Positions 258-35,956 of a DNA stretch of 37,282 nt are shown here, in pieces. Numbering within the stretch: position 1 is the first letter of the stretch; every line of letters starts with the position of its first letter. The stretch comes from Oscillospiraceae bacterium (GTDB lineage: Bacteria > Bacillota > Clostridia > Oscillospirales > Oscillospiraceae): NCBI GenBank assembly GCA_022800665.1, contig JAAWQS010000024.1, positions 1 to 37,282 of the forward strand, read 5' to 3'. The translations under genes were made by a program, and so were the position numbers. Under the pieces are notes generated by a model. It was not told where the DNA came from. It did no database searches and saw nothing but the letters and a program-made list of their open reading frames with translations.

Positions 258-365
258 AAACCCCTCAGTCACGCTTCGCGCTCCCCTTTCAGGGGAGCCT
301 TTTTTGATGCCGCGCCTCCAAAGCCTCCCCTGAAAGGGGAGGGGGACCGCTTGCGGTGGTGGGGT
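258..365. repeat. Palindromic interspersed repeat (MITE/RPT-like)
   Basis: Two imperfect inverted arms, each beginning with AACCCC and carrying CTCCCCTTTCAGGGGAG, flank a short centre. The left arm is 259-303 and the right arm 321-365, read inward. Each arm also contains its own CCCCTttcAGGGG hairpin. There is no coding capacity. The layout is that of a non-autonomous mobile repeat; copy number cannot be judged from this window. Confidence 0.5.
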
Positions 366-421
366 TCCTCGGATGAGCTGCACTCCACGTCCCTCCGCTC
401 AGGCAGAAATTTTTCCTGTCC

Positions 422-2134: not shown

Positions 2135-2136
2135 TC

Positions 2137-18130: not shown

Positions 18131-18790
18131 TTAGATATTCCAGAATTGCCGCTGCGTTATCCGCTCTCCCGGCGCGGCAAGGCAAAATTCTCCGTCGAAC
18201 TCATGCAGCAGCAGTTTTTCCAGCGCCCGTACGGTACCCTGCTGGCGGCTGTACGCCAGTCCAAGCGACGCCGCATCCGACTGAGCGGCCCCCTCGCAGG
18301 ACGCCAGGTCGTATCCCCCGGTGTCCACCAGCCGCAGCCAGCGGTACCCGGACAGCATAGCCCGCTGGATTTTTGCGGCCTTTTTTTCTCCGTAGATACG
18401 GCGGTATCTCTCCATTTCCCGCACAATATAGCGGTCGGAGATCATCCACTGACGGGTAAAATACAGACTGCGGCTGTCGCCGAGATGCCGGTTCTCCGGC
18501 TCCAGGGCCAGCAGAAGCCGTACGCAGTCGTCGAATCTTGGCACCGCAACGGCGGCTGTCCTGCTGCCCACGCCGTCCAGCGCGCCGCCGCAGTAAGCCA
18601 TCCCCAGCAGGATGAGACGGCAGGTTCCCTCCCGCCGGTCAATTTCCTCCTGCACGGCGGCCCGCAGGATTCCAGGGGAATCGTGCAGCCCCTTGTCCAG
18701 CCACACGGTTTCCGGCGCGCGGCCTGTCCGGGCCATAGCCAGCTCCAGTTCGTCCCGAAGCATCCCGCAGGCAATCAGTAGTTCACCCAT
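18131..18790 (-). CDS. DUF1638 protein of the methyltransferase operon
   Basis: This protein of about 219 residues fits the DUF1638 family: LLIACGMLRDEL at the N terminus, a KGLHDSPGILRAAVQEEID block, LILLGMAYCGGALDGV, and VPRFDDCVRLLLAL. Family members are commonly found beside corrinoid-dependent methyltransferases and UroD-like proteins; the function is unknown. It is the last gene of the operon, starting directly after the MtxA stop. Two starts are possible, GTG 18799 and ATG 18790; neither has a clear ribosome site, suggesting translation coupled to the upstream gene. Confidence 0.72.
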   Translation of the reverse strand: MGELLIACGMLRDELELAMARTGRAPETVWLDKGLHDSPGILRAAVQEEIDRREGTCRLILLGMAYCGGALDGVGSRTAAVAVPRFDDCVRLLLALEPENRHLGDSRSLYFTRQWMISDRYIVREMERYRRIYGEKKAAKIQRAMLSGYRWLRLVDTGGYDLASCEGAAQSDAASLGLAYSRQQGTVRALEKLLLHEFDGEFCLAAPGERITQRQFWNI

Positions 18791-18802
18791 GGGCCGCACG
18801 CG

Positions 18803-19813
18803 CTAACAGCCGGTATAAAAATCCGCTGCAGCCTGATAGAAAGCGTCAATGTTTTCCCACTTGGCAATCGGCGGAATATCGCAGCCGGAGGAAATGACAA
18901 AGTTGGGCGCGTGACAGCACTCCCGCATGACGTTCAGCGTCTCCTCGCGGATGGTATCGGGGGCGCCGAAGGTGAAGGTAGCCGGATTGACATTGCCCAT
19001 GCAAAGCAAGTGGTCCGGGCAGAGGGAGACGGCCTCCTTCATGGAGATCGCGTTGCCGAAGTGGTATCCGGCAGCGCCTACCCGCAGGATCGAGTCCATC
19101 ATCAGCATGGTATTGTTGCCGCAGTTGTGGTAAATAACGATAAAGTCGTCCTGCTGCACGGCGTCCACAATCCGTTTGACGTAGGGCTCGGAGAAATCGA
19201 CCGCCATCTTGGGCGACAGCAGGCCGGTCAGCGGCTCTGCCATGACGATGCCGTTGGCCCCGGCGTCCTGGTACGCCTTGGCATAGGAAATCAGGAACTG
19301 CGTACACTTTTCCATCACGGTGTGTACCAGCTGGGGATTTTTCTTGCACGCCTTCATGGCCTGCGCGGTACCGAGAAGACGTCCGGCCAGAGAGTAGGGA
19401 CCGATAATGCCCGCCAGAACGGGACGGTCTGTAATCAGCTCCACCGAGCGGGACATAGCGTCCAGATAAATCCGGGTGCGGCCTGCGCCAACCGCAGGCG
19501 CCGCCAGCCGGCCGGCCTCGTCCTGATTGTTGACCAGGCAGCCGATGACAGCCGGAACCTCGTCGTCGTTGACAAGGATTTCCGCGCCGAAGGACTCCGC
19601 CTCCAGGGACAGGTCCATCATACTCACCGCCGCCAGGGAATCGTTCCGGTCGGCCAGCAGCTTCATGGCCTTTGCCTGCGTTTCGCTGTCGCTGATGAGT
19701 TCCTTCACGGTGATGCCCAGCAGTTGAATCACCGGGAAAGTCAGGATTGGCATCGGCTTCTTGACAGAACCTGCAATCACCTCATCCTTCCATGCACGCA
19801 TGTTTCGTTTCAT
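18803..19813 (-). CDS. UroD/MtaA-family corrinoid methyltransferase (MtxA)
   Basis: This 336-residue protein of the uroporphyrinogen decarboxylase superfamily, MtaA/MtbA branch, would take the methyl group from the methyl-corrinoid protein and pass it to a thiol or folate acceptor. The zinc ligands of the branch are visible: His229 and Cys231 (YHNCGN) and Cys311 (SSGCDIPP); Glu183 in MAEP is also typical. In methanogens the acceptor is coenzyme M. A clostridium should lack it, so tetrahydrofolate or another thiol is more likely (inference). GGGAGG precedes ATG 19813. The gene lies 111 bases after mtxB, with a hairpin in the gap. Confidence 0.85.
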   Translation of the reverse strand: MKRNMRAWKDEVIAGSVKKPMPILTFPVIQLLGITVKELISDSETQAKAMKLLADRNDSLAAVSMMDLSLEAESFGAEILVNDDEVPAVIGCLVNNQDEAGRLAAPAVGAGRTRIYLDAMSRSVELITDRPVLAGIIGPYSLAGRLLGTAQAMKACKKNPQLVHTVMEKCTQFLISYAKAYQDAGANGIVMAEPLTGLLSPKMAVDFSEPYVKRIVDAVQQDDFIVIYHNCGNNTMLMMDSILRVGAAGYHFGNAISMKEAVSLCPDHLLCMGNVNPATFTFGAPDTIREETLNVMRECCHAPNFVISSGCDIPPIAKWENIDAFYQAAADFYTGC

Positions 19814-19924: not shown

Positions 19925-21301
19925 TTAATACTTCATTTTCAGACCAATGCGGCCAACCTCGTCCTTGACCTTGCCATACATGTCCAGCCACTCCTGCGCC
20001 GGCTCGACCTTAATGGGATCGTACGCCTCCAGGAAGCTCTTGCCGATGGGACGCTTGTCAAGATAGGACACATAGTGTTTCTGGAATTCCTTAATCATTT
20101 CGTTGGCGTCCTTCCGGGACACGCCTGTGGCTGCGTGGGCGATTTCGCCGTTGAAGCGGGCCTCCAGACCGGTTACGTGGAGGACCTCCACGCCCACGGC
20201 GGAGCGCACGCCGTCGATACGGGCGGTACCGGAGACGGTGGCCGCAGCAGCCATGGCGGCGCACTCATACAGCAGGCTCTCGGTCATGGGGCCGGAGACG
20301 GGGGAGGTCATGACGGTGGTCAGCAGGTGCGTGTTGCGGTTGACGGCCTGCTGTGCCGCGCTGACAGCCCAGATCAGCTCAGGCGCGGTATCGCAGTTAT
20401 AGAACGGATGGGTGGGGCAGATGGAGAAGGTGGTAGCCATATTGACCACGCACTCCATCACGATGCCCGCCACCGCGCACACGGCAACGCCCTCCGCGCC
20501 GCCGGCGTAGCCGCCCAGGATGGGATTGTAAAAGCTGTGGATGATACAGCCGGTTTTCACCAGATGGGCCACCTTGATAAGAAGGCCGTAGTTGGTCTTC
20601 AGCTCGCTGACAAAGCAGGTGTGGTGCCAGTCGCACTGGGGGAAGCCGCCGTAGGAGGAGCCGGAGAGCTCGCCGATTTCGGACACGGCGTTCTCCACCA
20701 CGCCGATGCCAATGCCGGGACGGCCCGCCCGCTGGGCCGCGGACTTGATCAATTCCACCTCGCGCCAGGCCAGAAGGACCTCCCAGGGACTGCGGGTCTT
20801 GGGGGTGCGGCCATGGGTGGTAAAGAAATTGCAGCCTACGATGGAGTCGATAACCGGCTCTTTGGCGTAGCTCTCCATAACGGCGGAGAACCACTCCTCC
20901 GGGATAGGCGCGCCGAAGCCGCCGCCCACGATTTTCGGCGTCACAGGGTCCTCCGGACGGCGGGTGACGATGGTACACTGATCCAGGCCGGAGCCGATGG
21001 TCAGGGCGTCTGGCGCCCAGCGCAGGGCCTGCAAAATCTCCTCTTTGCTGAATACCATCCGGGTATGGGTGTCGGTGCAGTACACGCCGGCGGCGCTGGC
21101 CAGCTCCAGGCCGGCCTCAAAAAAGCGGTCTGCCAGATCGTCGTCTGTAATAATGGCCTCGTTCCGGTCATATTTCAGGTCGTACTTTTTAATCAGGCTC
21201 CGGACGGTTTTGGAAATCAGCTTGTCGAATTCCTTTTCCTCCATTACGGGGCCGTTGTCCATACGGTCCAGGACCGTGAGCAGTCTGGTATGTGATTTCA
21301 T
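19925..21301 (-). CDS. MtmB-like corrinoid methyltransferase lacking pyrrolysine (MtxB)
   Basis: This 458-residue protein is collinear with archaeal monomethylamine methyltransferase MtmB, which is also 458 residues. Shared blocks include GVYCTDTHTRMVFSKEEI (about 73-90), GGGFGAPIPEEWF, AGRPGIGIG (192-200), GGYAGGAEG, GLEARFNGEIAHAATGV and a C-terminal KSFLEAYDPIKVEP. By my recalled alignment the UAG-encoded pyrrolysine (residue 202 of MtmB) falls at Gly200 here, and the frame has no amber codon. Such non-Pyl relatives would demethylate something other than monomethylamine and charge the corrinoid of the MtxC encoded immediately upstream (4-base gap). The substrate is unknown; the neighbours point to an N-methylated heterocycle. 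Confidence 0.85.
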   Translation of the reverse strand: MKSHTRLLTVLDRMDNGPVMEEKEFDKLISKTVRSLIKKYDLKYDRNEAIITDDDLADRFFEAGLELASAAGVYCTDTHTRMVFSKEEILQALRWAPDALTIGSGLDQCTIVTRRPEDPVTPKIVGGGFGAPIPEEWFSAVMESYAKEPVIDSIVGCNFFTTHGRTPKTRSPWEVLLAWREVELIKSAAQRAGRPGIGIGVVENAVSEIGELSGSSYGGFPQCDWHHTCFVSELKTNYGLLIKVAHLVKTGCIIHSFYNPILGGYAGGAEGVAVCAVAGIVMECVVNMATTFSICPTHPFYNCDTAPELIWAVSAAQQAVNRNTHLLTTVMTSPVSGPMTESLLYECAAMAAAATVSGTARIDGVRSAVGVEVLHVTGLEARFNGEIAHAATGVSRKDANEMIKEFQKHYVSYLDKRPIGKSFLEAYDPIKVEPAQEWLDMYGKVKDEVGRIGLKMKY

Positions 21302-21305
21302 TTTC

Positions 21306-21962
21306 TCAGCCCGCCTTTCTCTCGGCCATTATTTTCCGGCAAAGTTCCACCGCTTCGTTGGCGTCGTTGCTGTAGCCGTCCGCACCGATGGATTCGGCCC
21401 ATTCGGCGGACACCGGGCCGCCGCCTACGATCACCTTGTACTGATCGCGGATGCCCAGGCCCTCCATCGTCTTGAGCACGTCCACCATATAGGGCATGGA
21501 GGTGGTCAGGAGGGAGGAGAGGGCGATAATATCCACGTTTTCCCGCTTGGCGGTTTCAATGAAGGCGTAGGGAGCGACGTCGTTGCCCAGATCAATCACC
21601 TCGTAGCCATTGACTTCAAGGAGGGTAGCGACGATATTCTTGCCAATGTCGTGGACGTCGCCCTGGACAGTGCCGATGGCCACTTTTCCGGCGCTCTCGG
21701 AATCGTTGGAGGAGCTGAGCAGGTGGGCGCGGATTTCGTCCTTGACGGCCTTGGCTACATCGGCGGACATAATCAGGTCGGGCAGGAAGATTTCCAGCTT
21801 GGAAAATTTGTCGCCCACATCGTCCAGGATCGGCACAAGGCATTTTTGTACGATGTCCAGCGGATCGGTACCGTTCTCGATTTCCGCGCGGGTAATCTCG
21901 ACGGCCTCCTCCTCCTCTCCTTCCAAAACGCACTCCATCAGTTTGTCATAATACTGTTCCAT
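21306..21962 (-). CDS. Corrinoid-binding methyltransferase protein (MtxC)
   Basis: This is a 218-residue cobalamin-binding protein of the MtmC/MtbC/MttC type. A helical cap domain (about 1-85) precedes a Rossmann B12-binding domain (about 92-215) with the lower-axial ligand motif Asp102-x-His104-x-x-Gly107 (GDVHDIG), SSLLTTS and VGGGPVS. It shuttles the methyl group between MtxB and MtxA; its cobalt must be kept as Co(I), the job of RACE-type activators such as the one encoded at 24576-26906. ATG 21962 follows an AAAGGA-type ribosome site. It is the first gene of the mtxCBA-DUF1638 unit and has its own promoter. Confidence 0.93.
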   Translation of the reverse strand: MEQYYDKLMECVLEGEEEEAVEITRAEIENGTDPLDIVQKCLVPILDDVGDKFSKLEIFLPDLIMSADVAKAVKDEIRAHLLSSSNDSESAGKVAIGTVQGDVHDIGKNIVATLLEVNGYEVIDLGNDVAPYAFIETAKRENVDIIALSSLLTTSMPYMVDVLKTMEGLGIRDQYKVIVGGGPVSAEWAESIGADGYSNDANEAVELCRKIMAERKAG

Positions 21963-22233: not shown

Positions 22234-24543
22234 TCATTCACGAAAAAATTTTTTCTTGAGAAGACCGGCGTCCCGGAACGCGGCAAAGAGCACGTGGGGC
22301 GTCACCGGCGCGCGGTTGACCGCCACGCCGGTGGCCTGCAGAATGGCGTTGCGGATGGCCGGGGCCGGCGAACACGCCGGCGGCTCCCCCAGAGCTTTGG
22401 TTCCGTATGGACTGGTAGGCTCCGGATTTTCCACAAAGACCGCCTGTAAATGGGGGTGGTCCATAAAAGTGGACAATTTATAGTCCAGCAGATTGTTGTT
22501 CAGAGGCCGTCCCGTCTTCTCGTCAAAGAGCAGCTGTTCCGACAGGCCGTAGCCGATGCCCATGGACATGCCGCCGTGGACCTGGGCCTCCGCCAGCGCG
22601 GGATTGATCAGCTTGCCGCAGTCGTGGACATTGACAATGTTCAGCAGCTTCACCTGGCACAGGGGGATATCCACCTCCACCTCGGCAAAGGTGCAGCCGA
22701 AGGAATAGGCGTTGTTCTTGACCTGATACGTGCTCTCCGCCGTGATGTGCTGGGAGTGTTCCAGACTGTACAGCGTCTCCGTGGCCAGCTCGCCCAGGGT
22801 CATCAGCTCCCGCCCGTCGGAGATGCGGACAATCCGTCCGTCGATCAAATCCAGATTCGCCTTTGCCTGCCGCGTCAGCTCCACGGCGCAGGTCAGAATC
22901 TTATCCCGCAGAATCCCGCCCGTCTGCCGCAGGGAGAAGCCGCCGACATAGGTCTGCCGGGAGGCATAGGCTCCGGTACCGTAGGGGGTGATGTCAGTGT
23001 CCTGGGTGGACACAATATGTACGTCTTCAAAGGGAATCCCAATCGCGTCCGCCGCCATCTGCGCGAAGACGGTGTCGCAGCCCTGGCCGATCTCCGTCTC
23101 GCCGGTCTGGACCTGGACAGACCCGTCCTGATTGAGAACCATCCGGCAGGAGGAGGACTCCAGAGCGATGGGCCATACGGCGGTATTGTACCAGAACAAC
23201 GCCATGCCGACTCCCCGCCGCACCGGGCCGGTCTGGTTTTCATATTCCTGCCGTTTCCGCGTATAGTCAATGGCCGCCATGCCCTTGTCCATTGTCTCGC
23301 GGAAAGAGTCATAGTAATTTTCATTTTTACTGAAGGGATCGAAGAACCCCTTCGGCATGACAATCTGGCGGCGGTATTCCACAGGGTCCCGGCCCAAGGC
23401 GCGGGCAATTTCGTCTATATGGCTCTCCTCGGCCCACATCACCTGCGGCGTGCCGTAGCCCCGCATAGCTCCGCCGGAGGGCCGGTTGGTGAAGGCTGTC
23501 CAGGCGTCTCCCTCCAGATTGGGGCAGGGATACAGCTCCGGAAATGCGCTCATGCCCTTTTCCACCACGCCGTGTCCGTGGGAGATATAGGCCCCCTGAT
23601 TGGAGAAATACTCCGCCTTCCGGGCGGCCAGGGAGCCGTCGGGCCGCACCCAGGAGATGAGATGGGTGCGGATGGCGTGGCGCACCCGGTTTGTGACAAA
23701 GGTATCCTCCCGCGGGCAGTCCACCTTCACCAGCCGTCCCCCCAGCTGGGTGGTCAGCCAGGCGCACAGCGGCTCATACAGCGCGTCCTGCTTGTTGCCG
23801 AAGCCGCCGCCGATATAGGGCTTGATAATCCGCACCTTCCCCCACGGCACGCCCACGGCCTGGGCGCAGATCCGGCGGATGATATGGGGAATCTGCGTGG
23901 AAGCCGTGACAATAATCCGTCCGTTTTCCATATAGGCGGTGCAGATATTGTTTTCCAGGTGGCAGTGCTGGACGGTGGGGGTGTCATACCAGCCCTCCAC
24001 GCGCAGCAGACCCGGCTCCTGGACGGCGGCGGCGTAATCTCCTCTGCGAATCTGGGAATGCCCCACCACGTTGCCCGGATACCGCTCATGCAGTTGGGGG
24101 GCGTCCGGCGCGAGGGCCTCCTGCGCATCCAGCACAAAGGGATATTCCTCGTACTCCACCCGCACCAGCCGCGCGGCCCGGGCCGCCGAGACCTCGTCCT
24201 CCGCCACGACAACGGCGATATCCTCGCCGTAATAGCGCACGTGCCGGGCCAGCAGCAGCCGGTCTGCCACGTCCTGATGGGCCGGGTCGGTGGACCAGGG
24301 GTGTCCGGCGGTGGGGAAATAATTTTCCGGCACGTCAAAGCAGGTGAAGACCCGCACCACCCCCGGCATTTTTTCCGCCGCGGCGGTATCAATTGACTTG
24401 ACCATGCCGTGGGCAATCCGGGCATGTACCAGCCGGGTTGCCAGGGCGCGGCGTCCGCAGAGATCGTCGGTAAACTTGGCGCGGCCCGCCGCCTTGTCGT
24501 AGGCGTCCACGCGGATTTTGCTCTGTCCTGCGCTGCTGCTCAT
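22234..24543 (-). CDS. XdhA-type molybdenum hydroxylase large subunit
   Basis: This 769-residue molybdopterin-binding subunit belongs to the xanthine dehydrogenase/aldehyde oxidase family, which hydroxylates purines and other N-heterocycles at carbon using water. The a/b hammerhead domain (about 10-125) is followed by the Mo-binding halves, with GGGFGNK (245-251), MRGYG (Arg361), TGETEIGQG and the catalytic Glu in KALGEPP (Glu720). AGGAGG precedes ATG 24543, only 32 bases after the fused regulator gene, so the two are probably one transcript. The FAD and [2Fe-2S] subunits normally encoded beside it are absent from this window, so it must recruit partners encoded elsewhere or be a divergent hydroxylase. 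Whether it is a xanthine dehydrogenase proper is open. Confidence 0.9.
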   Translation of the reverse strand: MSSSAGQSKIRVDAYDKAAGRAKFTDDLCGRRALATRLVHARIAHGMVKSIDTAAAEKMPGVVRVFTCFDVPENYFPTAGHPWSTDPAHQDVADRLLLARHVRYYGEDIAVVVAEDEVSAARAARLVRVEYEEYPFVLDAQEALAPDAPQLHERYPGNVVGHSQIRRGDYAAAVQEPGLLRVEGWYDTPTVQHCHLENNICTAYMENGRIIVTASTQIPHIIRRICAQAVGVPWGKVRIIKPYIGGGFGNKQDALYEPLCAWLTTQLGGRLVKVDCPREDTFVTNRVRHAIRTHLISWVRPDGSLAARKAEYFSNQGAYISHGHGVVEKGMSAFPELYPCPNLEGDAWTAFTNRPSGGAMRGYGTPQVMWAEESHIDEIARALGRDPVEYRRQIVMPKGFFDPFSKNENYYDSFRETMDKGMAAIDYTRKRQEYENQTGPVRRGVGMALFWYNTAVWPIALESSSCRMVLNQDGSVQVQTGETEIGQGCDTVFAQMAADAIGIPFEDVHIVSTQDTDITPYGTGAYASRQTYVGGFSLRQTGGILRDKILTCAVELTRQAKANLDLIDGRIVRISDGRELMTLGELATETLYSLEHSQHITAESTYQVKNNAYSFGCTFAEVEVDIPLCQVKLLNIVNVHDCGKLINPALAEAQVHGGMSMGIGYGLSEQLLFDEKTGRPLNNNLLDYKLSTFMDHPHLQAVFVENPEPTSPYGTKALGEPPACSPAPAIRNAILQATGVAVNRAPVTPHVLFAAFRDAGLLKKKFFRE

Positions 24544-24575: not shown

Positions 24576-26906
24576 TCACCGGGGCGGGGGAAAGTTCATG
24601 GACTCAATATACCGCTTGCGGAAAAAACTGCTGACAGACAGCTCCACCACCTGGGCGGCGGCGGCGATCTGCCGGGCCTCCTCGGCCAGACCGGCGGATT
24701 GCAGGATACGGCACGCGCCGGTACCAGCCGCGTTGCCGATGGAGACCGTCCGTCCGGACAGCCCCTCCGGCAGAAGGCCGATGCGCTCGGCGGACACCGG
24801 GTCCATCCAGCTGCCGAAGCCGCCGCAGAGGATAATGCCGTCCAGCTGGCCGTATTCGATCCCGGCGGCGTCCAGCAGGGCGTCGATCCCCCCGCGGACC
24901 GCCCCCTTTGCCAGCTGCAGCTGCCGGATATCCTTCTGCGTAATCCGCACGTTGGCGGCGAGGGACAGCTCGCCGTCCGGACCAGGGCGGATACGGCCTC
25001 TTGGACTGATGTCCCCGGTCTCCAGCAGGCAGGCCGCGGCGTCGATCAGGCCGGACCCGCAGAGGCTCTCGGCCTCCCCGCCGCCGATCACCGTGCAGTG
25101 CAGGGCGCCCTGGTCCAGCGTTACCCGGCTGATGGCGCCGCTGCGGGCGCCGGACCCGCAGGAAATGCCCGCGCCCTCGAAGGCGGGGCCTGCCGCCGTA
25201 GCGCAGCAGTACAGTCCCCGGCTGGTCTTCAGCGCCATTTCCCCGTTGGTACCCGCGTCCACCAGCAGAAAACATCCCGGCTGCTGGAGAAGCCCGCTGG
25301 CCAAAATGCTGCATGTGATATCCGCGCCCACATAGGCGGAGATACAGGGGGGGAGATAAGCGGGCAGGCCGGGGAAGCCTGGCAGGCCAAGGGCCAGCGT
25401 CGTCCCGAACAGGGACTGGGGGCGGAAGGGCGCAAGGGACAGCGACCGGGGGTCCAGGCCGGAGGCCAGGTGCAGCATGGTGGTGTTGCCGGTGACGCAC
25501 AGGCCGGATACCCGGCTCTCCTCTGCATTGGCGTTCCGGCAAAGCTGGTGGAGCATGTCCCCCAGCTGTCCGCAGATCAGCGTCCGCAGAGGCTCCACCG
25601 TATTCCGGTTGGCGTAGTCGATGCGGGAGAGCACATCCGCGCCGTACCGGCTCTGGCGGTTCATCTCTCCCAACGCCGCTAGCGCCCCCTTCTCCTCCCG
25701 TGAGAAAAGGTAGCCCACCACGGTAGTGGTGCCGATGTCAAAGGCCGCGCCCAGCGTCCCGCTGTAGATGGGCTCCAGGGGGGCGGAATCTGCGGAATAG
25801 CCGGTTTCGATCCTGTCGCCGCCCTGGGAGGAGGGGAGGGTGACGCAGCAGTCCCCCTGAATTCTGGCGAAGCAGGCCAGACGCACGCCGTCGGGTGCGC
25901 CTTCCAGCAGGGCCTTCTCCTCCGGAGACGGGGCGGACAGCTCTCCGGACACGTTCACCCGGCATTTCCCGCAGGCGCGGTTCCCGCCGCAGGGGAAATC
26001 CAGGGGCAGTCCTGCGCTCCGGATGGCCTCCATCAGCTCCGTATTGGCATGGACGGGGATGGTTCCAGATTTTTCTCCATTGTGCCAGGTCAAAGATACC
26101 ACGGGGACCTCCTTGCTCGCTCTGTTCCGGCGCAGGGACTCCGGCGGCAGGGTGCGTTTGAATTTTGCGCTGAGGACCCGCTTCTGGAAGGAGAAGGGGA
26201 TCAGCTTTGTGTTGTAGTGCTCCACCGAGTACAGCACCGGGTCCGACGCCTGGGTATAGCAGACGGAATCCAGCTTCAGCAGGGGGAAGCCCTCGTCCAC
26301 GGTCATGATTTCTGCCAGCCGCCCCTCCGCCGCGCAGGTGTCCATATGGACGATCAGCGTCTCCAGCAGATCGTCGCACATGCCCTGGAGGAACAGAAAA
26401 ATGTTCATGTCCACCAGCGACAGGCTGCTGTTCGTCCGCTCGTAATAGCGGGCGGGGATGTAGTCCACAACCAGAATCACCGGCCTGCCGTCCGCATAGA
26501 TCACAATCTCAATCTGATACGTGCTCTCCCCAGGCTCCAGCGCCAGCTTCCTGGCCACCTCCGGCGGCGGGTCGGACAGCTTCCGCAGCTGATAGAGCGT
26601 GGAGCGCGGCTGGAAGCCGCAGTTGGCCACAATATCCATATAGACGCTGTCGATATCCAGCCGGGCCGGTTCATCCAAAACATAGCGGTTAATCAGCGTT
26701 CCCGCGCCCCGCTTTCTGATAATATACCCCGCGCCCTCCAGCTGGGAGAGAACGTCCCGCATTTTGACCCTGCTGACGCCAAACTGTGCCGCCAGATCGG
26801 CCTCAGAGGGGAGGCGGTTGCCGGTGTGCTCCTTGGCGTAGGCGCGAATCCACTCCAGCAGGCGAATGTAGGTTTCCGGATACAGGTCGTACGGCTGACT
26901 TTTCAT
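24576..26906 (-). CDS. GntR/UTRA regulator fused to [2Fe-2S]-ASKHA corrinoid activator (RACE)
   Basis: This 776-residue fusion has three parts. Residues 8-75 are a GntR winged helix (RLPSEADLAAQFGVSRVKMR, then GYIIRKRGAGTLI). Residues about 85-245 are a HutC-type UTRA effector domain ending in PFSFQKRV. From 269 onward it is a reductive activator of corrinoid enzymes: a ferredoxin domain with Cys306, Cys312, Cys315 and Cys345 (CGGNRACGKC, LACF), a linker, and a DUF4445 ASKHA ATPase from about 387 (FDIGTTTVVG, GNTTMLHL, LVDAGTNGEM, CGSGARSGA, CGGFGSW). The activator half should reduce Co(II) corrinoid of MtxC using ATP; the front half should bind DNA in response to a small molecule. I know the two families only as separate proteins. 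ATG 26906 has GGAGG 8 bases upstream. The frame is continuous. Confidence 0.93.
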   Translation of the reverse strand: MKSQPYDLYPETYIRLLEWIRAYAKEHTGNRLPSEADLAAQFGVSRVKMRDVLSQLEGAGYIIRKRGAGTLINRYVLDEPARLDIDSVYMDIVANCGFQPRSTLYQLRKLSDPPPEVARKLALEPGESTYQIEIVIYADGRPVILVVDYIPARYYERTNSSLSLVDMNIFLFLQGMCDDLLETLIVHMDTCAAEGRLAEIMTVDEGFPLLKLDSVCYTQASDPVLYSVEHYNTKLIPFSFQKRVLSAKFKRTLPPESLRRNRASKEVPVVSLTWHNGEKSGTIPVHANTELMEAIRSAGLPLDFPCGGNRACGKCRVNVSGELSAPSPEEKALLEGAPDGVRLACFARIQGDCCVTLPSSQGGDRIETGYSADSAPLEPIYSGTLGAAFDIGTTTVVGYLFSREEKGALAALGEMNRQSRYGADVLSRIDYANRNTVEPLRTLICGQLGDMLHQLCRNANAEESRVSGLCVTGNTTMLHLASGLDPRSLSLAPFRPQSLFGTTLALGLPGFPGLPAYLPPCISAYVGADITCSILASGLLQQPGCFLLVDAGTNGEMALKTSRGLYCCATAAGPAFEGAGISCGSGARSGAISRVTLDQGALHCTVIGGGEAESLCGSGLIDAAACLLETGDISPRGRIRPGPDGELSLAANVRITQKDIRQLQLAKGAVRGGIDALLDAAGIEYGQLDGIILCGGFGSWMDPVSAERIGLLPEGLSGRTVSIGNAAGTGACRILQSAGLAEEARQIAAAAQVVELSVSSFFRKRYIESMNFPPPR
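26100..26114 (-). promoter_or_regulatory. Internal ribosome site and GTG at the fusion junction
   Basis: Inside the fused gene, on the coding strand, AAGGAGG (26114-26108) lies 5 bases before an in-frame GTG (26102-26100, Val269). The GTG coincides with the first strand of the ferredoxin domain (VVSLTWHNGEKSG). Initiation here would give a free 508-residue RACE protein, the usual domain content of the stand-alone family. Confidence 0.6.
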
Positions 26907-26943
26907 ACCCCGGTCCTCCTCTGCGATGTCCCCTATATTTTGC

Positions 26944-26956
26944 CGCAAATTTTGCG
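26944..26956. promoter_or_regulatory. 13-bp palindrome upstream of the fused regulator
   Basis: CGCAAATTTTGCG is a perfect inverted repeat around its centre base, 38 bases before the start codon of the GntR-RACE gene. It could be an autoregulatory operator; no clear sigma-A promoter can be set with certainty around it. Confidence 0.4.
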
Positions 26957-27010
26957 TTTTGTCCAGCCCCCAGAGGGCATAAAAATTTTTTGCCGGGCGG
27001 ATGGAGGCCG

Positions 27011-27025
27011 ATTGGTACTACTAAT
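27011..27025. promoter_or_regulatory. Candidate GntR/HutC-type operator
   Basis: ATTGGTACTACTAAT is a 15-bp inverted repeat with a single mismatched pair (arms ATTGGTA and TACTAAT). The form resembles operators of UTRA-type GntR regulators such as the DasR/NagR sites. It lies between the fused regulator gene and the divergent amidohydrolase gene. Confidence 0.5.
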
Positions 27026-27200
27026 TTTTGTGTAATTCGTCAAAACGCCCCGAAAAGAGCCGAAATAATGGAGGAAAAAGGGGGAATATCCGCCAATAAA
27101 CAGCCGGGCGGGCGGACATGGACCGCCGGTTTTACCGAATAAAACTGGAAATCAGTAGCGCCAATCCGGGAATGGAAAAATTTTTCGTAAAAATCCATGG

Positions 27201-27229
27201 TTGCATTTGTAGGAAATGTATGCTATTTT
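27201..27229 (+). promoter_or_regulatory. Promoter of the amidohydrolase-permease operon
   Basis: TTGCAT (27201-27206) and TATTTT (27224-27229) are spaced 17 bases apart; transcription would start near 27236, about 100 bases before ATG 27338. Confidence 0.5.
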
Positions 27230-27240
27230 TTAGGTTATAA

Positions 27241-27270
27241 GCGCATTTTTGTTGTTAATAACAAAAGCGC
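27241..27270. promoter_or_regulatory. Palindrome/hairpin just after the amidohydrolase promoter
   Basis: TTGTTGTTAATAACAA (27249-27264) is a near-perfect palindrome centred on TTAA, embedded in a longer hairpin closed by GCGC at both ends. It sits just downstream of the predicted transcription start, where a repressor would block the amidohydrolase-permease operon. It could be a second site of the GntR-type regulator or an RNA hairpin. Confidence 0.45.
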
Positions 27271-27337
27271 GCGGACAGGAACGATTCATTTTTTAGTGGG
27301 AGCGGCTGCCGCTCAACTGCAGAAAAGGAGGTTTTTG

Positions 27338-28693
27338 ATGCACCGCCTGTTAATCCGCAATATCCGCACCCTGATTTCCTGCGACGGGCAGGATCGGGTC
27401 TATGAGAACGTGAATGTCTTTTGTGAGGACGGGCTGATCCGCTCCATCGGCCCGGAAGCCCCGGAGGCCGGCGAGGTGATTGATGCCGCCGGAATGCTCT
27501 GTTACCCCGGCCTGGTCAACACCCATCACCATCTCTATCAGGTCTTTTCCCGGAATCTGCCCCAGGTGCAGAATATGGAGCTGTTTGACTGGCTGGTAAC
27601 GCTCTACGAGATCTGGAAGGGGCTGAATGAGGATACCATCCGTCTTTCCTCCGCCGTAGGGATGGGAGAGCTGCTGAAGAACGGCTGCACCACCGTCTTT
27701 GACCACCACTATGTGTTCCCGAAGGACGCCGGGGACCTCATCGGCGCACAGGCCCAGGCGGCGGAGCTGCTGGGTGTGCGGATGCACTTCTCCCGCGGCA
27801 GCATGGATCTGTCCAAGAAGGACGGCGGCCTGCCGCCGGATTCCGTGGTGCAGAGCGTGGACGAAATCATGAGCGACAGCGTCCAGCTGATTGCCAAATA
27901 TCACGACCCGTCCTTCCAATCCATGCGCCGGCTGGCGCTGGCGCCCTGCTCGCCCTTCTCCGTCTCGGCGGACCTGCTGCGGGAGAGCGCGGTCCTGGCG
28001 CGGGAGTACGGCGTGCGCCTGCACACCCACTTGTGCGAGACCAAGGACGAGGAGCGGTACACCCTGGAAAAAGTGGGACTGCGGCCCCTGGCGTACATGC
28101 AGAGCCTGGGCTGGACAGGCCCCGACGTCTGGTATGCCCACGGCATCCATTTCAATGACGAGGAGCTCAAGGTCCTGGCAGAGACCGGCTCCGGCGTGTG
28201 CCACTGCCCCATTTCCAATATGAAGCTGGCCTCCGGCGTGGCCCGGATCCCGGAGATGCTGGAGATGGGGATTCCCGTGGGCCTGGGCGTGGACGGCTCC
28301 GCCTCCAACGACGGCTCCAATCTCCTGGAGGAGCTGCGGGTGAGCTATCTGCTCCACCGCCTCCATTCCAGCGCAAAGGCCCCCTCCGGCTACGAGCTGC
28401 TGAAGACGGCCACAATGGGCAGCGCACGGCTGCTGGGCCGGGAGAAGGAGATCGGCTCCCTGGAGGTCGGGAAGTGCGCGGACCTGTTCCTGCTCCGGCA
28501 GAACCGGCTGGAGCTGACGGGCGCGTGCCGCGATCCCAAGTCTGTGCTGTGTACCGTGGGCGTCAAGGGTCCGGTGGACTACACCGTGGTCAATGGCCGC
28601 GTGACCGTCCGCGACGGCAGACTGACCGGCGTGGACGAGGAAAAATTGGCGCAGGAGGCCGAGCAGGAAGTACAGCGTTATCTGGACCAGTAA
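27338..28693 (+). CDS. Amidohydrolase, 8-oxoguanine deaminase/TrzA-AtzA type
   Basis: This 451-residue metal-dependent deaminase belongs to the amidohydrolase superfamily (SsnA/guanine deaminase/TrzA branch). Metal and catalytic motifs are NTHHHLYQVF (about 63-72), HTHLCET, AHGIHF and GVDGSASNDGS. The last, with the HHHLYQ start, resembles 8-oxoguanine deaminase, which makes uric acid. The substrate here may be another aminopurine or related heterocycle. AAGGAGG precedes ATG 27338. The permease gene follows after 44 bases, and the operon is divergent from the regulator-XdhA genes, which echoes purine-catabolism clusters that join deaminase, XDH and permease. Confidence 0.85.
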   Translation: MHRLLIRNIRTLISCDGQDRVYENVNVFCEDGLIRSIGPEAPEAGEVIDAAGMLCYPGLVNTHHHLYQVFSRNLPQVQNMELFDWLVTLYEIWKGLNEDTIRLSSAVGMGELLKNGCTTVFDHHYVFPKDAGDLIGAQAQAAELLGVRMHFSRGSMDLSKKDGGLPPDSVVQSVDEIMSDSVQLIAKYHDPSFQSMRRLALAPCSPFSVSADLLRESAVLAREYGVRLHTHLCETKDEERYTLEKVGLRPLAYMQSLGWTGPDVWYAHGIHFNDEELKVLAETGSGVCHCPISNMKLASGVARIPEMLEMGIPVGLGVDGSASNDGSNLLEELRVSYLLHRLHSSAKAPSGYELLKTATMGSARLLGREKEIGSLEVGKCADLFLLRQNRLELTGACRDPKSVLCTVGVKGPVDYTVVNGRVTVRDGRLTGVDEEKLAQEAEQEVQRYLDQ

Positions 28694-28737: not shown

Positions 28738-30021
28738 ATGGGACAAAATAATAGTCAGGTTTCATCATACGATACAGCAGCAATCAACCAGGAAAACCGG
28801 CAGAGCTGGGTTAAAGTCCTCTCCATTTGGATGGGTCTGATCTTCTCCACAGCCACCATGCTCTATGGCGGCGTTCTGGGTACCTTTTTGAGCCTGGGCG
28901 GCGCGCTGCTGGCCATTCTCTGCGGCACGGCGATCCTGGCAGTCCTCTCGATCCTGATCTCCAATATCGGCGCGGATACGGGCCTGTCCTGCTATGAGCT
29001 GATGAAATATTTCCTGGGCAGCACAGGCGGCAAAATCGTCTCCGTCATGTTCATCATTGTCATGCTGGGCTGGTCCGGAATCGGCGTGATCGTGGTGGTG
29101 GAGATGCTGGCGATCTATTTCCCCTTTTTCAGTACCCCCATCGGGTTCGCTCTGGGCGGAATCGGGCTGAATATTATCTTTGTGGGGACCGTGTGGACCA
29201 GCTTCAAGGGGCTGAGCTTTTTCTCCCGCCTCGCTGTGCCGGTCATCGCGCTGGTGTTTATCATCGCGCTCATCCGCACCGGACAGGTCTACGGCATCAC
29301 CCCGCTGTTTGAAAAGCCGCCGGTGAATCCCCGCAGCTTTATCTATGTGGTCTCCGGCGTGGTGGCCTGCTGGATCAACGCGCCGCTCCAGGCCCCCGAT
29401 ATTTCCCGGTTCTCCCGCTCCCGGAAGGATACGCTGCTGGCCACCATTCTGGCCTTTGTGGGCGGCGCTACGCTGGTCTACGGCATCGGCGCAATCACAG
29501 GCGTCGCCACGGGACAGGACAATATTCCCGGCATCTTCAATATGCTGGGCATCGCGGGTCTGGCCGTCATACTGATTCTGCTGCTGACCTGGACCAGCAG
29601 CGCGGAGAGCCTCTACTCCTCCTCCCTCGCCTTTGCCTCCGTCCTGCCGGTTAAGAAGAAGGAGTACCTGCTGGGCCTGAGCTTCCTGATTACTACAATC
29701 TTTACGCTGATTGATCTGTACTCCTATTTTACCCAATGGGTGGATATCGTGGGTCTGTTCTTCTGCCCCGTCATCGGCCTCTTCCTGACGGATTATCACT
29801 TTTTCCGTGAGAAATACACCCTGCCCGCAGACGAGATTACCGCGGCTATCTCCATCCCGTCTGTGATTGCTATGGTCGTCGGAATCGTCACCAATCTGGC
29901 CATCGCGGATTACGGGCTGTTTGTCTCGATCCTTACTACCTCGGTCGCTTACTACATACTCAACCGCTTTGTGTTCCCGGATCAGACGCTGCTGGCCGCA
30001 AGGGCGGCGAAAAAGGGATAA
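28738..30021 (+). CDS. NCS1-family cytosine/purine permease (CodB-like)
   Basis: This 427-residue membrane transporter has about 12 helices from residue 24 to 415. The N-terminal QSWVKVLSIWMGLIFS, GADTGLSCYELMKYFLG and WINAPLQAPDISRFSRS blocks are typical of CodB-like nucleobase:cation symporters. It probably imports the substrate of the neighbouring amidohydrolase. It is the second gene of the plus-strand operon and is followed by a strong terminator. NCS1 relatives carry cytosine, purines, hydantoins or thiamine precursors, so the substrate is not fixed by family alone. Confidence 0.9.
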   Translation: MGQNNSQVSSYDTAAINQENRQSWVKVLSIWMGLIFSTATMLYGGVLGTFLSLGGALLAILCGTAILAVLSILISNIGADTGLSCYELMKYFLGSTGGKIVSVMFIIVMLGWSGIGVIVVVEMLAIYFPFFSTPIGFALGGIGLNIIFVGTVWTSFKGLSFFSRLAVPVIALVFIIALIRTGQVYGITPLFEKPPVNPRSFIYVVSGVVACWINAPLQAPDISRFSRSRKDTLLATILAFVGGATLVYGIGAITGVATGQDNIPGIFNMLGIAGLAVILILLLTWTSSAESLYSSSLAFASVLPVKKKEYLLGLSFLITTIFTLIDLYSYFTQWVDIVGLFFCPVIGLFLTDYHFFREKYTLPADEITAAISIPSVIAMVVGIVTNLAIADYGLFVSILTTSVAYYILNRFVFPDQTLLAARAAKKG

Positions 30022-30141: not shown

Positions 30142-30176
30142 TCCAACGACACCATGAGATGAAAGGGGAGGCGCGT

Positions 30177-30860
30177 ATGACAAAAATCCTGGTTGTGGAG
30201 GACGATCTGGCCCTGAGCGCAGGACTGTGCTTTGCGCTGGACGAGGCCGGGTATCTCTCCGCCGCGGCCTACACCTGCGAAAAAGCCCGGCGGTTTTTGC
30301 AGGGCGAACCATTTCGTCTGGCTATTCTGGACATCAATCTCCCGGACGGAGACGGCTTTGCCCTGTGCCGGGAGTTCAAAACGGCGGCGCCGGAGATGCC
30401 GGTGATTTTCCTGACCGCCAACGACTTGGAGCAGGACGAGCTGCATGGCTTTGACCTGGGTGCGGACGATTACGTCACCAAGCCCTTCAGCATCCAAATT
30501 CTCATACGGCGGGTGGAGGCGGTTCTGCGCCGGGGCGTCTCCAACGCCGGCGGCGACGGGTTTGACGACGGCTTCCTGCGGCTGGATTTTCAGGCCATGA
30601 CCGCCGTACGGGGCGGCGAGAAGGTGGCGATTACGCCTAACGAATATAAGCTGCTCCGCCTTCTGACCGCCAAAGCCGGGACGGTAGCCACGCGGCGGCT
30701 CCTGCTGGAAAAGCTGTGGGATATGGAGGGGAATTTTGTGGACGACCACACCCTTACCGTTACCATGAACCGCCTGCGCGCCAAGATTGAGGACGGCCGG
30801 CATACCTACATCCAGACCATCCGGGGCATGGGCTATGTCTGGACGGGAGCGCAGGAATGA
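30177..30860 (+). CDS. OmpR-family response regulator
   Basis: This 227-residue regulator has a receiver domain (acidic pocket Asp9/Asp10, phospho-acceptor Asp52 in LDINLPDGDG, Thr80, Lys102 in TKPF) and a C-terminal winged helix (about 130-225; ITPNEYKLLRLL, TIRGMGYVW). GGGAGG precedes ATG 30177. Its stop overlaps the kinase start in ATGA. With the following kinase and ABC genes it resembles the peptide-antibiotic sensing modules of Firmicutes; a likely target is the promoter at 32604-32647. Confidence 0.94.
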   Translation: MTKILVVEDDLALSAGLCFALDEAGYLSAAAYTCEKARRFLQGEPFRLAILDINLPDGDGFALCREFKTAAPEMPVIFLTANDLEQDELHGFDLGADDYVTKPFSIQILIRRVEAVLRRGVSNAGGDGFDDGFLRLDFQAMTAVRGGEKVAITPNEYKLLRLLTAKAGTVATRRLLLEKLWDMEGNFVDDHTLTVTMNRLRAKIEDGRHTYIQTIRGMGYVWTGAQE

Positions 30861-31867
30861 GCGGGGACGGCACGGCGCGGATTCCGCTGCTGCTGGTTCT
30901 GTCGGCCCTGCTGCTGATCCTGCTGGGGACGCTGGAGTTCTCCGCCGTACTCCTGCGCCTGGCGGCGGTTTGTCTGGGCCTGTCCGTTCTGCTGCTGACC
31001 CTCCTGTGGAAACGCCGTCAGGCGCGGCGGGAATCCGATTTCGCCAACAGCGTCTGCGAAACCCTGGACGCGCTGATGCGTGGCCGGGAGCCGGAGAACT
31101 ACCGCCCCTATGAGGACTCCCAGCTCTCCAAGGCGCTGGGAAAGCTGGTGCAGTACCACGACCAGGCCCAGGCGGGACAGCGGCAGAGCGAAATGGACAG
31201 GCAAACCATTCAGGAGCTGGTCAGCGACATCTCCCACCAGGTAAAGACCCCTATGACAAATATCCGGATGTTCACGGACATTCTGCGCCGGCATGAGCTG
31301 CCGGAGGAAAAACGGGCGGAGGTTCTCGCCACACTCGCCGCTCAGGTCCATAAGCTGGACTTTCTGATGCAGTCCCTCATCAAAATGTCCCGGCTGGAGG
31401 CCGGCACGTTTACGCTGCACGTGGAGGAGGCCAGCCTGTACGACACCATTGCCCAGGCCGCCGGCGGCGTTCTGGCGGCGGCGAACCGGAAGCGTATCCG
31501 GATCACTGTGGACTGCGACAGCCGGGAGACTGTCCGGCACGACCCCAAGTGGACGGCGGAAGCGTTGGGGAATCTCCTGGACAATGCGGTGAAATATACG
31601 CCGGAGGGCGGGAGCATTTGTATCAGCGTCCGCCCCTGGCAGTTTTATACCCGGATTGACGTGGCCGACACCGGAATGGGAATCCCCGCTGCGCATTACC
31701 ACGATGTATTCAAACGCTTTTACCGCGCGCAGCCATCGGCGGCGGCAGAGGGCGTGGGGCTGGGGTTGTATCTGGCACAGGGGATCATCTCCCGGCAGAA
31801 GGGCTATATCAGCGTAAAATCAGAGGTTGGGAAGGGTTCCACCTTTTCCGTATTTCTTTTGAGGTAA
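30857..31867 (+). CDS. Sensor histidine kinase
   Basis: This 336-residue kinase has two N-terminal transmembrane segments (about 9-27 and 30-50) with almost no extracytoplasmic loop, as in intramembrane-sensing kinases linked to peptide-antibiotic ABC transporters. The phospho-acceptor is His127 (SDISHQVKTPM); the ATPase domain shows NLLDNAVKYTP, DTGMGIP and GVGLGLYLA. Its ATG overlaps the response regulator stop. With no sensor domain of its own, it may take its signal from the transporter encoded downstream (family inference). Confidence 0.93.
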   Translation: MSGDGTARIPLLLVLSALLLILLGTLEFSAVLLRLAAVCLGLSVLLLTLLWKRRQARRESDFANSVCETLDALMRGREPENYRPYEDSQLSKALGKLVQYHDQAQAGQRQSEMDRQTIQELVSDISHQVKTPMTNIRMFTDILRRHELPEEKRAEVLATLAAQVHKLDFLMQSLIKMSRLEAGTFTLHVEEASLYDTIAQAAGGVLAAANRKRIRITVDCDSRETVRHDPKWTAEALGNLLDNAVKYTPEGGSICISVRPWQFYTRIDVADTGMGIPAAHYHDVFKRFYRAQPSAAAEGVGLGLYLAQGIISRQKGYISVKSEVGKGSTFSVFLLR

Positions 31868-31876
31868 ACGAATTTC

Positions 31877-32542
31877 ATGGACATTGCAGCCGTTCATAAT
31901 CTGAAAAAGTATTTTAACGCAGGCGTCCGGCAGGTCAAGGCCATTGACGGGATTGATCTCTCGATTGAAAAGGGAAAGCTTACCGCCATCATCGGGGCCT
32001 CCGGCAGCGGAAAGACGACGCTTTTGAACCTGATCGGCGGTCTCTGCCGGCCAACGGAGGGGACTGTGACGGTTGACGGCGTGGACCTGGGGACGCTGGG
32101 GGAGGATGAGCTGACCGTCTTTCGCCGCCGGAAGATCGGTTTTGTCTTCCAGGGCTGCGGCCTTGTTCCGGAGCTGACCGTCCGGGAGAACATCCTGCTC
32201 CCCCTGGCCCTGGACGGCTCCTGGCCGGACGCGGTCTTTTTGGAGGAGCTGGCCGGCCTGCTGGGGCTGACGAAAAAGCTGGACTGCTTTCCCTGTCAGC
32301 TCTCCGGCGGCGGACAGCAGTGTACCGCCATTGCCCGGTCGCTGCTTACAAAGCCCGCGGTCATTCTGGCCGACGAACCTACAGGGAGCTTTGATGCCAG
32401 GACCAGTCGGAATGTAGCGGGACTTTTGAAAATGACTGCGGAGACATTTCACCAGACTTTGGTCATGATTACCCATAATCTGGAGCTTGCCCAGCTTGCC
32501 GACCATGTCGTGTGCCTGCGGGATGGCCGGATTGCACAGTGA
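31877..32542 (+). CDS. ABC ATPase with degenerate signature motif
   Basis: This is a 221-residue ATPase of the MacB/BceA/LolD family. Walker A GASGSGKTT (40-48) and Walker [11 protein letters not shown] are normal, and the Q-loop has Gln92. The signature region reads LSGGGQQC (142-149) where LSGGQQQR is usual, and the D-loop side reads GSFDART instead of GNLDSRT. The sister gene at 35288 keeps the consensus. This copy may hydrolyse ATP poorly or act as a regulatory partner. It follows the kinase by 9 bases and is cut off from the permease gene by a terminator. Confidence 0.87.
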   Translation: MDIAAVHNLKKYFNAGVRQVKAIDGIDLSIEKGKLTAIIGASGSGKTTLLNLIGGLCRPTEGTVTVDGVDLGTLGEDELTVFRRRKIGFVFQGCGLVPELTVRENILLPLALDGSWPDAVFLEELAGLLGLTKKLDCFPCQLSGGGQQCTAIARSLLTKPAVILADEPTGSFDARTSRNVAGLLKMTAETFHQTLVMITHNLELAQLADHVVCLRDGRIAQ

Positions 32543-32547
32543 ACCCG

Positions 32548-32580
32548 CCGCGCCCCGCATCCTGCCGGGGCGCGGTTTTT
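32548..32580 (+). terminator. Intrinsic terminator
   Basis: CCGCGCCCCG and CGGGGCGCGG form a perfect 10-bp stem followed by TTTTT, right after the degenerate ATPase gene. It splits the cluster into a sensing unit and a transporter unit. Confidence 0.9.
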
Positions 32581-32603
32581 CCGCCCAGCAAAAGGTACAA
32601 AAA

Positions 32604-32647
32604 TGTGACCTGGCTGTACCGCAATTGTGACATTCGGCTGCTATACT
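32604..32647 (+). promoter_or_regulatory. Candidate response-regulator promoter for the transporter genes
   Basis: TGTGAC occurs at 32604-32609 and again at 32626-32631, each followed within 2-4 bases by GGCTG; the offset is 22 bp, two helical turns. The -10 TATACT is at 32642-32647 and there is no good -35. Direct repeats in place of a -35 are typical of promoters activated by OmpR-family regulators. Confidence 0.5.
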
Positions 32648-32678
32648 GAGCGCAGTAAAACATGCAGGAGGCATCCCT

Positions 32679-35267: not shown

Positions 35268-35287
35268 CGGCAGAAAGGAGATTTATT

Positions 35288-35956
35288 ATGGAGAGCATTT
35301 TAAGAGCTTCCGGTCTGAAAAAATATTACGGTACAGGCGAAACGCAGGTCCGGGCCTTGGACGGCGTGGACCTGGAAATTGAACGGGGAACATTCACCGC
35401 TATTATCGGCGCCTCCGGCAGCGGGAAATCTACCTTGCTGAATATTCTGGGCGGGCTGGACATCCCCACAGAGGGAATCGTTCAGATTGGCGGTACGGAG
35501 CTTGCCAGCCTGGATCGGGAACAGGCGGCTATTTTCCGCCGGAAACAGATCGGCTTTGTTTTTCAGAACTACAACCTGATCCCTGTGCTGACGGTGTGGG
35601 AGAACATTGTGTTCCCCCTTTCCCTGGACGGACAGAAGCCGGACCAAGCGTTTATCATGCGGGTGGCGAAGCTGCTGGGGCTGGAGGACAAGCTGGACAG
35701 CCTGCCCAACTGTCTCTCCGGCGGACAGCAGCAGCGGGCCGCCATTGCACGGGCCTTGGCGTCCAAGCCCGCCATCATTCTGGCTGACGAGCCAACGGGA
35801 AATCTCGATTCCAGAACCAGCGACGACGTGATGGGCCTGTTGCAGATGAGCAGCAGGGAGTTTCACCAGACCATTGTGATGATTACCCACAATCCTGATA
35901 TTGCGCAGAGGGCGGACCGGATTGTGCGGATCGAGGACGGAAAAATTGCCGCGTGA
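35288..35956 (+). CDS. ABC ATPase of the FtsX-type transporter
   Basis: This is a 222-residue ATPase of the MacB/BceA family with [10 protein letters not shown]-loop [13 protein letters not shown], canonical signature [15 protein letters not shown], Walker [12 protein letters not shown]-loop GNLDSRTS and switch His in [17 protein letters not shown] precedes ATG 35288; an earlier in-frame ATG at 35264 overlaps the permease stop and is less likely. It is the obvious energy partner of the permease. Close similarity to the ATPase at 31877 suggests duplication, with this copy conserved and the other drifting. Confidence 0.93.

Follow-up and report, generated by a model that had tools for sequence, protein, structure and literature searches.

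A GntR-UTRA regulator joined to a RACo-type corrinoid activator in Oscillospiraceae, with a predicted operator and purine-related neighbours

Contig JAAWQS010000024.1 of an Oscillospiraceae bacterium (assembly GCA_022800665.1), analyzed here over its full 37,282 nucleotides (the window), encodes at 24576–26906 on the minus strand a single protein in which a GntR-UTRA transcription regulator is joined to a RACo-type activator of corrinoid proteins. The join is a genuine, conserved and rare architecture, and both halves are ordinary members of known families; what is new is the join itself, a predicted operator and the purine setting. Oxidation to Co(II) inactivates corrinoid methyltransferases, and RACo-type proteins restore them, which poses the question of how cells match this repair capacity to demand. 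On the whole we think it probable that the fused protein is a bifunctional autoregulator, likely responsive to purines, that also reactivates its cognate corrinoid protein. No regulator-RACo fusion protein was found described in the open-licence PubMed Central (PMC) literature searched, in agreement with the first-pass annotation of this DNA, which had been made from the sequence alone and knew of no described example.

Domain architecture of the fusion protein

Translation of the stretch gives one uninterrupted frame of 776 codons plus a stop, beginning with ATG; the plus-strand frame over the same interval contains two stops. The first-pass annotation had the coordinates and length right and left the strand unstated. 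From the N-terminus, the protein contains a GntR winged-helix domain (residues 11–72, 26691–26876; Pfam PF00392, 2.3e-11), a UTRA ligand-binding domain (residues 97–233, 26208–26618; PF07702, 2.2e-16), a 23-residue linker with seven K/R and two D/E (residues 244–266, 26109–26177), a ferredoxin-type [2Fe-2S] domain (residues 276–358, 25833–26081), the RACo middle domain (Raco_middle, residues 385–541, 25284–25754, 7.9e-40, with DIGTTT at 390) and the RACo C-terminal ASKHA domain (RACo_C_ter, residues 546–773, 24588–25271, 1.2e-61, with DAGTNGE at 550), all on the minus strand. The earlier claim that a GntR/UTRA regulator is joined to a complete RACE protein is borne out by these domains and by the four cysteines seen. 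The Pfam check proposed with it returned GntR, UTRA, Raco_middle and RACo_C_ter, all four above their curated cut-offs, whereas the Fer2 model was not reported in the Pfam scan of the 776-residue translation. Assignment of the ferredoxin-type domain rests instead on an NqrF model match to residues 276–358, below the family cut-off, on a match of ferredoxin 1l5p to residues 290–352, and on a CX5CX2C...C motif at Cys 306, 312, 315 and 345.

Comparison with known structures places both halves in their families. Carboxydothermus RACo 3zyy aligns to residues 384–771 (E 2.7e-70), with a second stretch covering the ferredoxin part, and 2wv0 and 9i0v match the winged helix and UTRA half. The order of [2Fe-2S] domain, middle region and ASKHA C-terminal domain is that of Carboxydothermus RACo (3zyy, 4c1n), to which the fusion adds an N-terminal GntR-UTRA segment; the ferredoxin-to-middle spacing is about 25 residues in the fusion compared with about 115 in the Carboxydothermus protein. 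An AlphaFold2 model built from 13 alignment rows, with a mean predicted local distance difference test score (pLDDT) of 68, gave values over 75, apart from some dips, for most of the RACo half; it speaks for folding of that half only.

The fusion is conserved in a second species

Among 40 relatives, a second genome of the same genus (G020) carries the whole fusion with 90% identity over residues 1–774, no stops and one single-residue indel (contig record CAMWTG010000088.1, uncultured Clostridia bacterium). The Nei-Gojobori method gave a synonymous distance (dS) of 0.61, a non-synonymous distance (dN) of 0.056 and a dN/dS ratio of 0.093 for the pair. By part, dN/dS was 0.063 in GntR, 0.041 in UTRA, 0.157 in the ferredoxin part, 0.042 in the middle domain and 0.162 in the C-terminal domain, so that both halves look constrained. 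The linker gave the highest value of the stretches measured (0.33), although its 35 codons and approximately 10 changes are too few to weigh. Gene order 3' of the fusion is the same in G020, namely genes for XdhA, a corrinoid protein, an MtmB homologue, a UroD-type protein and a DUF1638 protein; the G020 contig starts 237 bases before the fusion ATG, so that genes divergent from the fusion lie outside its view.

The first-pass annotation had raised the concern that a base error might have created the frame, and an assembly or base-calling artefact joining two genes would find some room in the fragmented state of both genomes (194 and approximately 360 contigs) and in the existence of unfused relatives. 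An identical join in two species separated by a dS of 0.61, with matching downstream gene order, makes such an artefact scarcely credible, and a single sequencing error as the cause is ruled out by the orthologous fusion.

Unfused relatives and origin of the fusion

Separate genes for the two halves in close relatives had been named beforehand as an outcome that would undermine the fusion. They do occur. On a second G020 contig (C31, locus L058), one strand carries a GntR gene (252 residues), an NCS1 permease, a corrinoid protein, an MtmB homologue, an unassigned 0.7-kb stretch, a RACo gene and a UroD-type gene; the GntR protein is 44% identical to the fused GntR and the RACo protein 48% identical to the fused RACo. 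In another genome, G846 (L093), RACo stands alone, a TetR-type gene takes the place of the regulator, and no GntR match was present in the 19 kb around it. Because an orthologous fusion exists in G020, these separate-gene relatives mark the unfused state and not an error. The presence of GntR and RACo as separate genes in one gene run of G020 C31 is a classical sign that proteins found fused elsewhere act in one pathway. Immediately after the linker, the fusion sequence VPVVSL matches the native RACo N-terminus of L058, MPVVTL. To judge from these alignments, the fusion joins a complete GntR protein, through a basic linker of 23 residues, to a RACo protein from its natural start.

In a tree of 76 RACo rows (ultrafast bootstrap/Shimodaira-Hasegawa-like approximate likelihood ratio test), the two fusions pair at 100/100; their nearest neighbour is the unfused RACo of G846 (100/95), followed one step further out by G020's second, unfused RACo (100/99). 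Since the fusions pair inside a supported unfused group, the fusion appears most simply to have been derived once, from within that group. The full fusion was present in 2 of 25 genus genomes; only 9 of these combine a completeness of 90% or more with a contamination of 5% or less, and some absences may be gaps. Beyond the genus, the matches listed for 394 genomes of the order, 391 of the class, 300 of the family and 289 of the phylum contained no further fusion (the samples overlap, and only the two or three top candidates of each genome were scored). One of 12 loci in a search of contig records was a fusion, the G020-type record; no plasmid record had one place covering 80% of the query, and viral contigs gave none.

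Ten RACo frames of 609–888 codons, picked for length, contained no N-terminal regulator domain by Pfam at E 0.001; the frames above 630 codons outside that scan include L024, L025, L030, L069 and L077. One of the ten (L063:2635–4839, plus strand) joins a RACo protein to a C-terminal DUF2284 in one frame. Open-frame lengths from the genome search ran through stops in L009 and L031 and were not counted as proof of fusion. At L009 (genome G015; L009:1498–3972, minus strand) a stop codon lies between GntR/UTRA-like and RACo genes in the same frame, and this candidate was rejected as a fusion; the GntR gene was named by eye, a corrinoid-protein gene adjoins the pair, and the RACo sits in another part of the tree than the fusion. 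At L031, an AraC-type regulator gene (277–1494, plus strand, named by eye) ends 3 bases before a RACo gene (1498–3078, plus strand), a close regulator-activator pairing.

A predicted operator upstream of the fusion

The first-pass annotation had pointed to 26907–27337 as the region for DNA binding, and a predicted operator does lie inside it. The 13-bp palindrome TTGGTACTACTAA at 27012–27024, approximately 105 bp upstream of the fusion, is the single exact match in its own genome to the pattern TTRGTANTACYAA; a reversed control pattern gave none. In G020 a stretch of 15 bases (AAATTAGTAGTACCA) is invariant, and its spacing to the -10 region is unchanged and without a gap; the G020 site has one mismatch to TTRGTANTACYAA, and hence no exact match. 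Closer to the gene on the minus strand are a ribosome-binding-site-like GAGGAGGA before the ATG (26914–26921) and a weak sigma-70-like promoter, TGGACA-17-CAAAAT (26937–26965; one found, with a mean of 0.7 in shuffles). A weaker second palindrome at 27252–27264, TTGTTAATAACAA, has two mismatches to the pattern and was set aside as being at chance level, there being two matches at two mismatches in the window.

A search with a profile of three GntR halves yielded relatives, at E values no higher than 1e-25, in 12 of the 300 family genomes, among them the fusion's own. In 18 related GntR loci (window excluded; 65,142 nucleotides), nine sites with at most one mismatch were found in six loci, two of them exact, and none of 200 permuted half-site palindromes occurred in six GntR loci, the nearest reaching four. 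Control loci (102, some overlapping each other; 645,692 nucleotides) had no site at this level. At two mismatches, GntR loci gave 21 sites in 14 loci and control loci 19 sites in 15.

Several of these sites lie beside purine genes. At L151 (5948 and 6120) and L154 (5846 and 6018), two sites 172 bp apart separate GntR from genes for a PbuX-type permease, XdhC and XdhA; at L152 (4632), one operator-like site lies between XdhC and GntR; and at L107 (3909 and 3923), sites are on the GntR side leading to a purine-type permease three genes on. The window follows the same plan, with a fused regulator gene, a predicted operator and a divergent deaminase-permease pair. Five of 16 wide GntR loci had a purine gene (L107 through a query taken from itself). 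As an observation in its own right, the GntR/UTRA group with predicted operator TTRGTANTACYAA beside purine-type permease or xanthine dehydrogenase genes (L151, L154, L152 and L107) may represent a purine-catabolism regulon.

Evidence bearing on activase function

RACo binds the Co(II) corrinoid protein with Ser398 ligating cobalt, and the binding of ATP is proposed to set off electron transfer from a cluster whose potential is near -340 mV (PMC4934906). For O-demethylases, PMC6739815 describes a nucleotide-bound activator that shifts the cobalt potential, ATP hydrolysis doing the rest, and presents activators of corrinoid methyltransferases as monomeric.

The genome that carries the fusion is 95% complete and shows a single further RACo match, a 703-codon frame on contig C10, which we label AcsV-like. 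Corrinoid matches elsewhere in this genome lie inside an 809-codon frame and, weakly, in a 751-codon frame, and the window holds the only stand-alone MtxC-type corrinoid protein found there. Because the fused RACo is the sole short RACo found in the genome and is accompanied by the sole stand-alone corrinoid protein found, it probably has to work as an activase, and real activity is expected.

Neighbouring genes and the purine setting

Downstream of the fusion on the minus strand lie genes for an XdhA-type molybdenum subunit (22234–24543; 1189 bits, cut-off 780), the stand-alone MtxC-type corrinoid protein, which is the probable RACo substrate (21306–21962; below the family cut-off, 189 vs 215 bits), an MtmB homologue (19925–21301), a UroD-fold, MtaA/MtbA-like methyltransferase that may catalyze a second methyl transfer (18803–19813; NCBIfam matches all below cut-off) and a DUF1638 protein (18131–18799). 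Divergent from the fusion on the plus strand are an amidohydrolase matching the 8-oxoguanine deaminase model (27338–28693; 576 bits, cut-off 532) and an NCS1-type cytosine/purine permease (28738–30021; Pfam above cut-off, NCBIfam matches below). XdhB and XdhC were not found beside the window XdhA. An XdhABC-type set on another contig of the same genome (C167; L144:4790–8478) could supply the subunits unseen there.

The MtmB homologue is of the non-pyrrolysine kind: Gly200 lies opposite X at 202 of MtmB1 (1l2q), which we take to be pyrrolysine, and the frame has no in-frame stop. MtmB homologues are rare, occurring in 3 of 250 family genomes with the fusion's own included and G020 outside that sample. 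All six MtmB-homologue loci examined (window 19925–21301, L058, L059, L093, L142 and L143) have purine genes, and several of the purine queries came from these very loci, so that those rows match by construction; with window-derived queries only, G020 C88 and G846 C2 match. The genes are the 8-oxoguanine deaminase model match, XdhA and NCS1 in the window, XdhA on G020 C88, NCS1 on G020 C31, an 8-oxoguanine-deaminase-like gene (528 vs a cut-off of 532) with XdhABC and a PbuX-like gene on G846 C2, two xanthine/uracil-type permeases on G846 C5 and a divergent adenine deaminase on G807 C129. Identical purine queries found a purine gene in none of 30 wide RACo loci without MtmB. Non-pyrrolysine MtmB homologues with purine genes are thus candidate corrinoid-dependent N-methylpurine demethylases. 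A literature search for corrinoid, methyltransferase, demethylation and methylxanthine together found no paper.

Proposed mechanism and alternatives

In the bifunctional autoregulator that we favor, the GntR-UTRA half, probably as a dimer, would bind TTGGTACTACTAA and control the gene run that the fusion leads, and probably also the deaminase and permease genes on the divergent side. It would repress without purine, and a purine or methylated purine on UTRA would bring about release, upon which the activase would be made with the operon. With ATP and its [2Fe-2S] cluster, the RACo half would reduce the corrinoid protein encoded nearby from Co(II) back to Co(I), so that the MtmB homologue could pass a methyl group from its substrate, predicted to be an N-methylated purine, towards the UroD-type methyltransferase. 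GntR-UTRA proteins are dimeric in known members, and fusion of RACo to such a dimer would place two activators on one operator. As the RACo half is expected to bind its partner in the Co(II) state, this engagement could signal pathway demand to the DNA-binding half, although such cross-talk is the least certain part of the proposal. Purine genes accompany the relatives of the regulator half in 5 of 16 loci, so that a UTRA-bound purine, rather than the redox state favoured in the first-pass annotation, may well be what acts first.

Several results weigh against this mechanism. Ala571 of the fusion aligns with RACo Ser398, the Co(II) ligand in C. hydrogenoformans RACo. Residues 60–112 and 127–265 were modelled at pLDDT below 50, the regulator half being covered by two alignment rows. 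Twelve of the 18 related GntR loci have no site at one mismatch or fewer (flanks up to 1.5 kb), and 11 of the 16 wide GntR loci lack any of the purine gene types searched. At L058, only a 9-bp core, RGTANTACY, is seen in two copies (Markov resampling P 0.0004, with the core chosen after sighting), and 13-mer matches at three mismatches there are at chance level (7 vs 6.2). The predicted operator also stands clear of the weak -35 match, 46 bp upstream of it.

The halves might instead be two working modules without cross-talk, the fusion simply keeping regulator and activase together while UTRA ligand alone sets DNA binding. Both halves are full length, the polar linker maps onto the natural ends of the separate proteins, and linker dN/dS is the highest measured, on few changes; a repressor, however, is commonly required at lower copy number than an operon enzyme, and a fixed 1:1 ratio would then have no obvious use, leaving this a serious yet not a likely alternative. 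A stronger form of the proposal treats the protein as a trigger enzyme, in which the repair enzyme of a corrinoid-dependent N-methylpurine demethylase (the non-pyrrolysine MtmB homologue) is itself the purine-responsive repressor. Held inactive Co(II) corrinoid protein and a UTRA-bound purine would together release or remodel the protein on the operator, linking pathway synthesis to the fraction of dead cofactor; we regard this form as tentative and less likely than not. It is quite improbable that one half is a relic, with GntR a mere dimerizing tail or RACo a sensor without activase activity. Such an outcome has precedent in other fused regulators of the ROK and MocR families, in which an enzyme fold survives purely as a sensor, and the alanine in place of cobalt-ligating Ser398 would suit it, though alanine is common to 8 of 11 unfused relatives (serine in the other three, L072, L074 and L077). 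Both dN/dS ranges (0.04–0.06 in GntR/UTRA and 0.04–0.16 in the RACo-side domains), the intact cysteine and phosphate motifs, the conserved operator and the failure to find another short RACo in its own genome argue against a relic.

Relation to known systems

The GntR-UTRA half resembles the GntR/HutC (UTRA) regulators YvoA and DasR in its winged helix and UTRA domain and in a predicted palindromic operator upstream of its own gene; the fusion differs in its C-terminal enzyme, and some of its close relatives stand beside purine genes. In proteins of the PutA type, the DNA-binding repressor of an operon is likewise joined to a pathway enzyme. The folds differ, and redox cross-talk is known for PutA whereas for the fusion it is only proposed. 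ROK repressors combine a helix-turn-helix with an ASKHA fold of the sugar-kinase-like branch, without an Fe-S domain or UTRA.

PMC13044021 (2026) presents MtqB of Methanococcoides, acting on tetramethylammonium and choline, as the first function of a non-pyrrolysine MtmB, and a figure legend there terms those outside named clades of unknown function. The window methyltransferase likewise belongs to the MtmB homologues that lack pyrrolysine, but it is bacterial and stands with purine genes. In a rumen Eubacterium genome, methyltransferase genes of unknown substrate are reported to occur usually with separate GntR regulators (PMC4791908). The genes around the fusion are a concrete, testable candidate for the demethylation of purines without oxygen and hint at what one group of non-pyrrolysine MtmB homologues may do. 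The double make-up of the fusion protein suggests that the repair enzyme of a demethylation pathway may also be the pathway's switch, and with a regulator that is itself the repair enzyme, a single protein, its operator and a corrinoid protein would be enough to test the question of repair versus demand directly.

Farther along the plus strand of the window, 30159–35956 carries response regulator, sensor kinase and ABC transporter genes, as recognized by eye.

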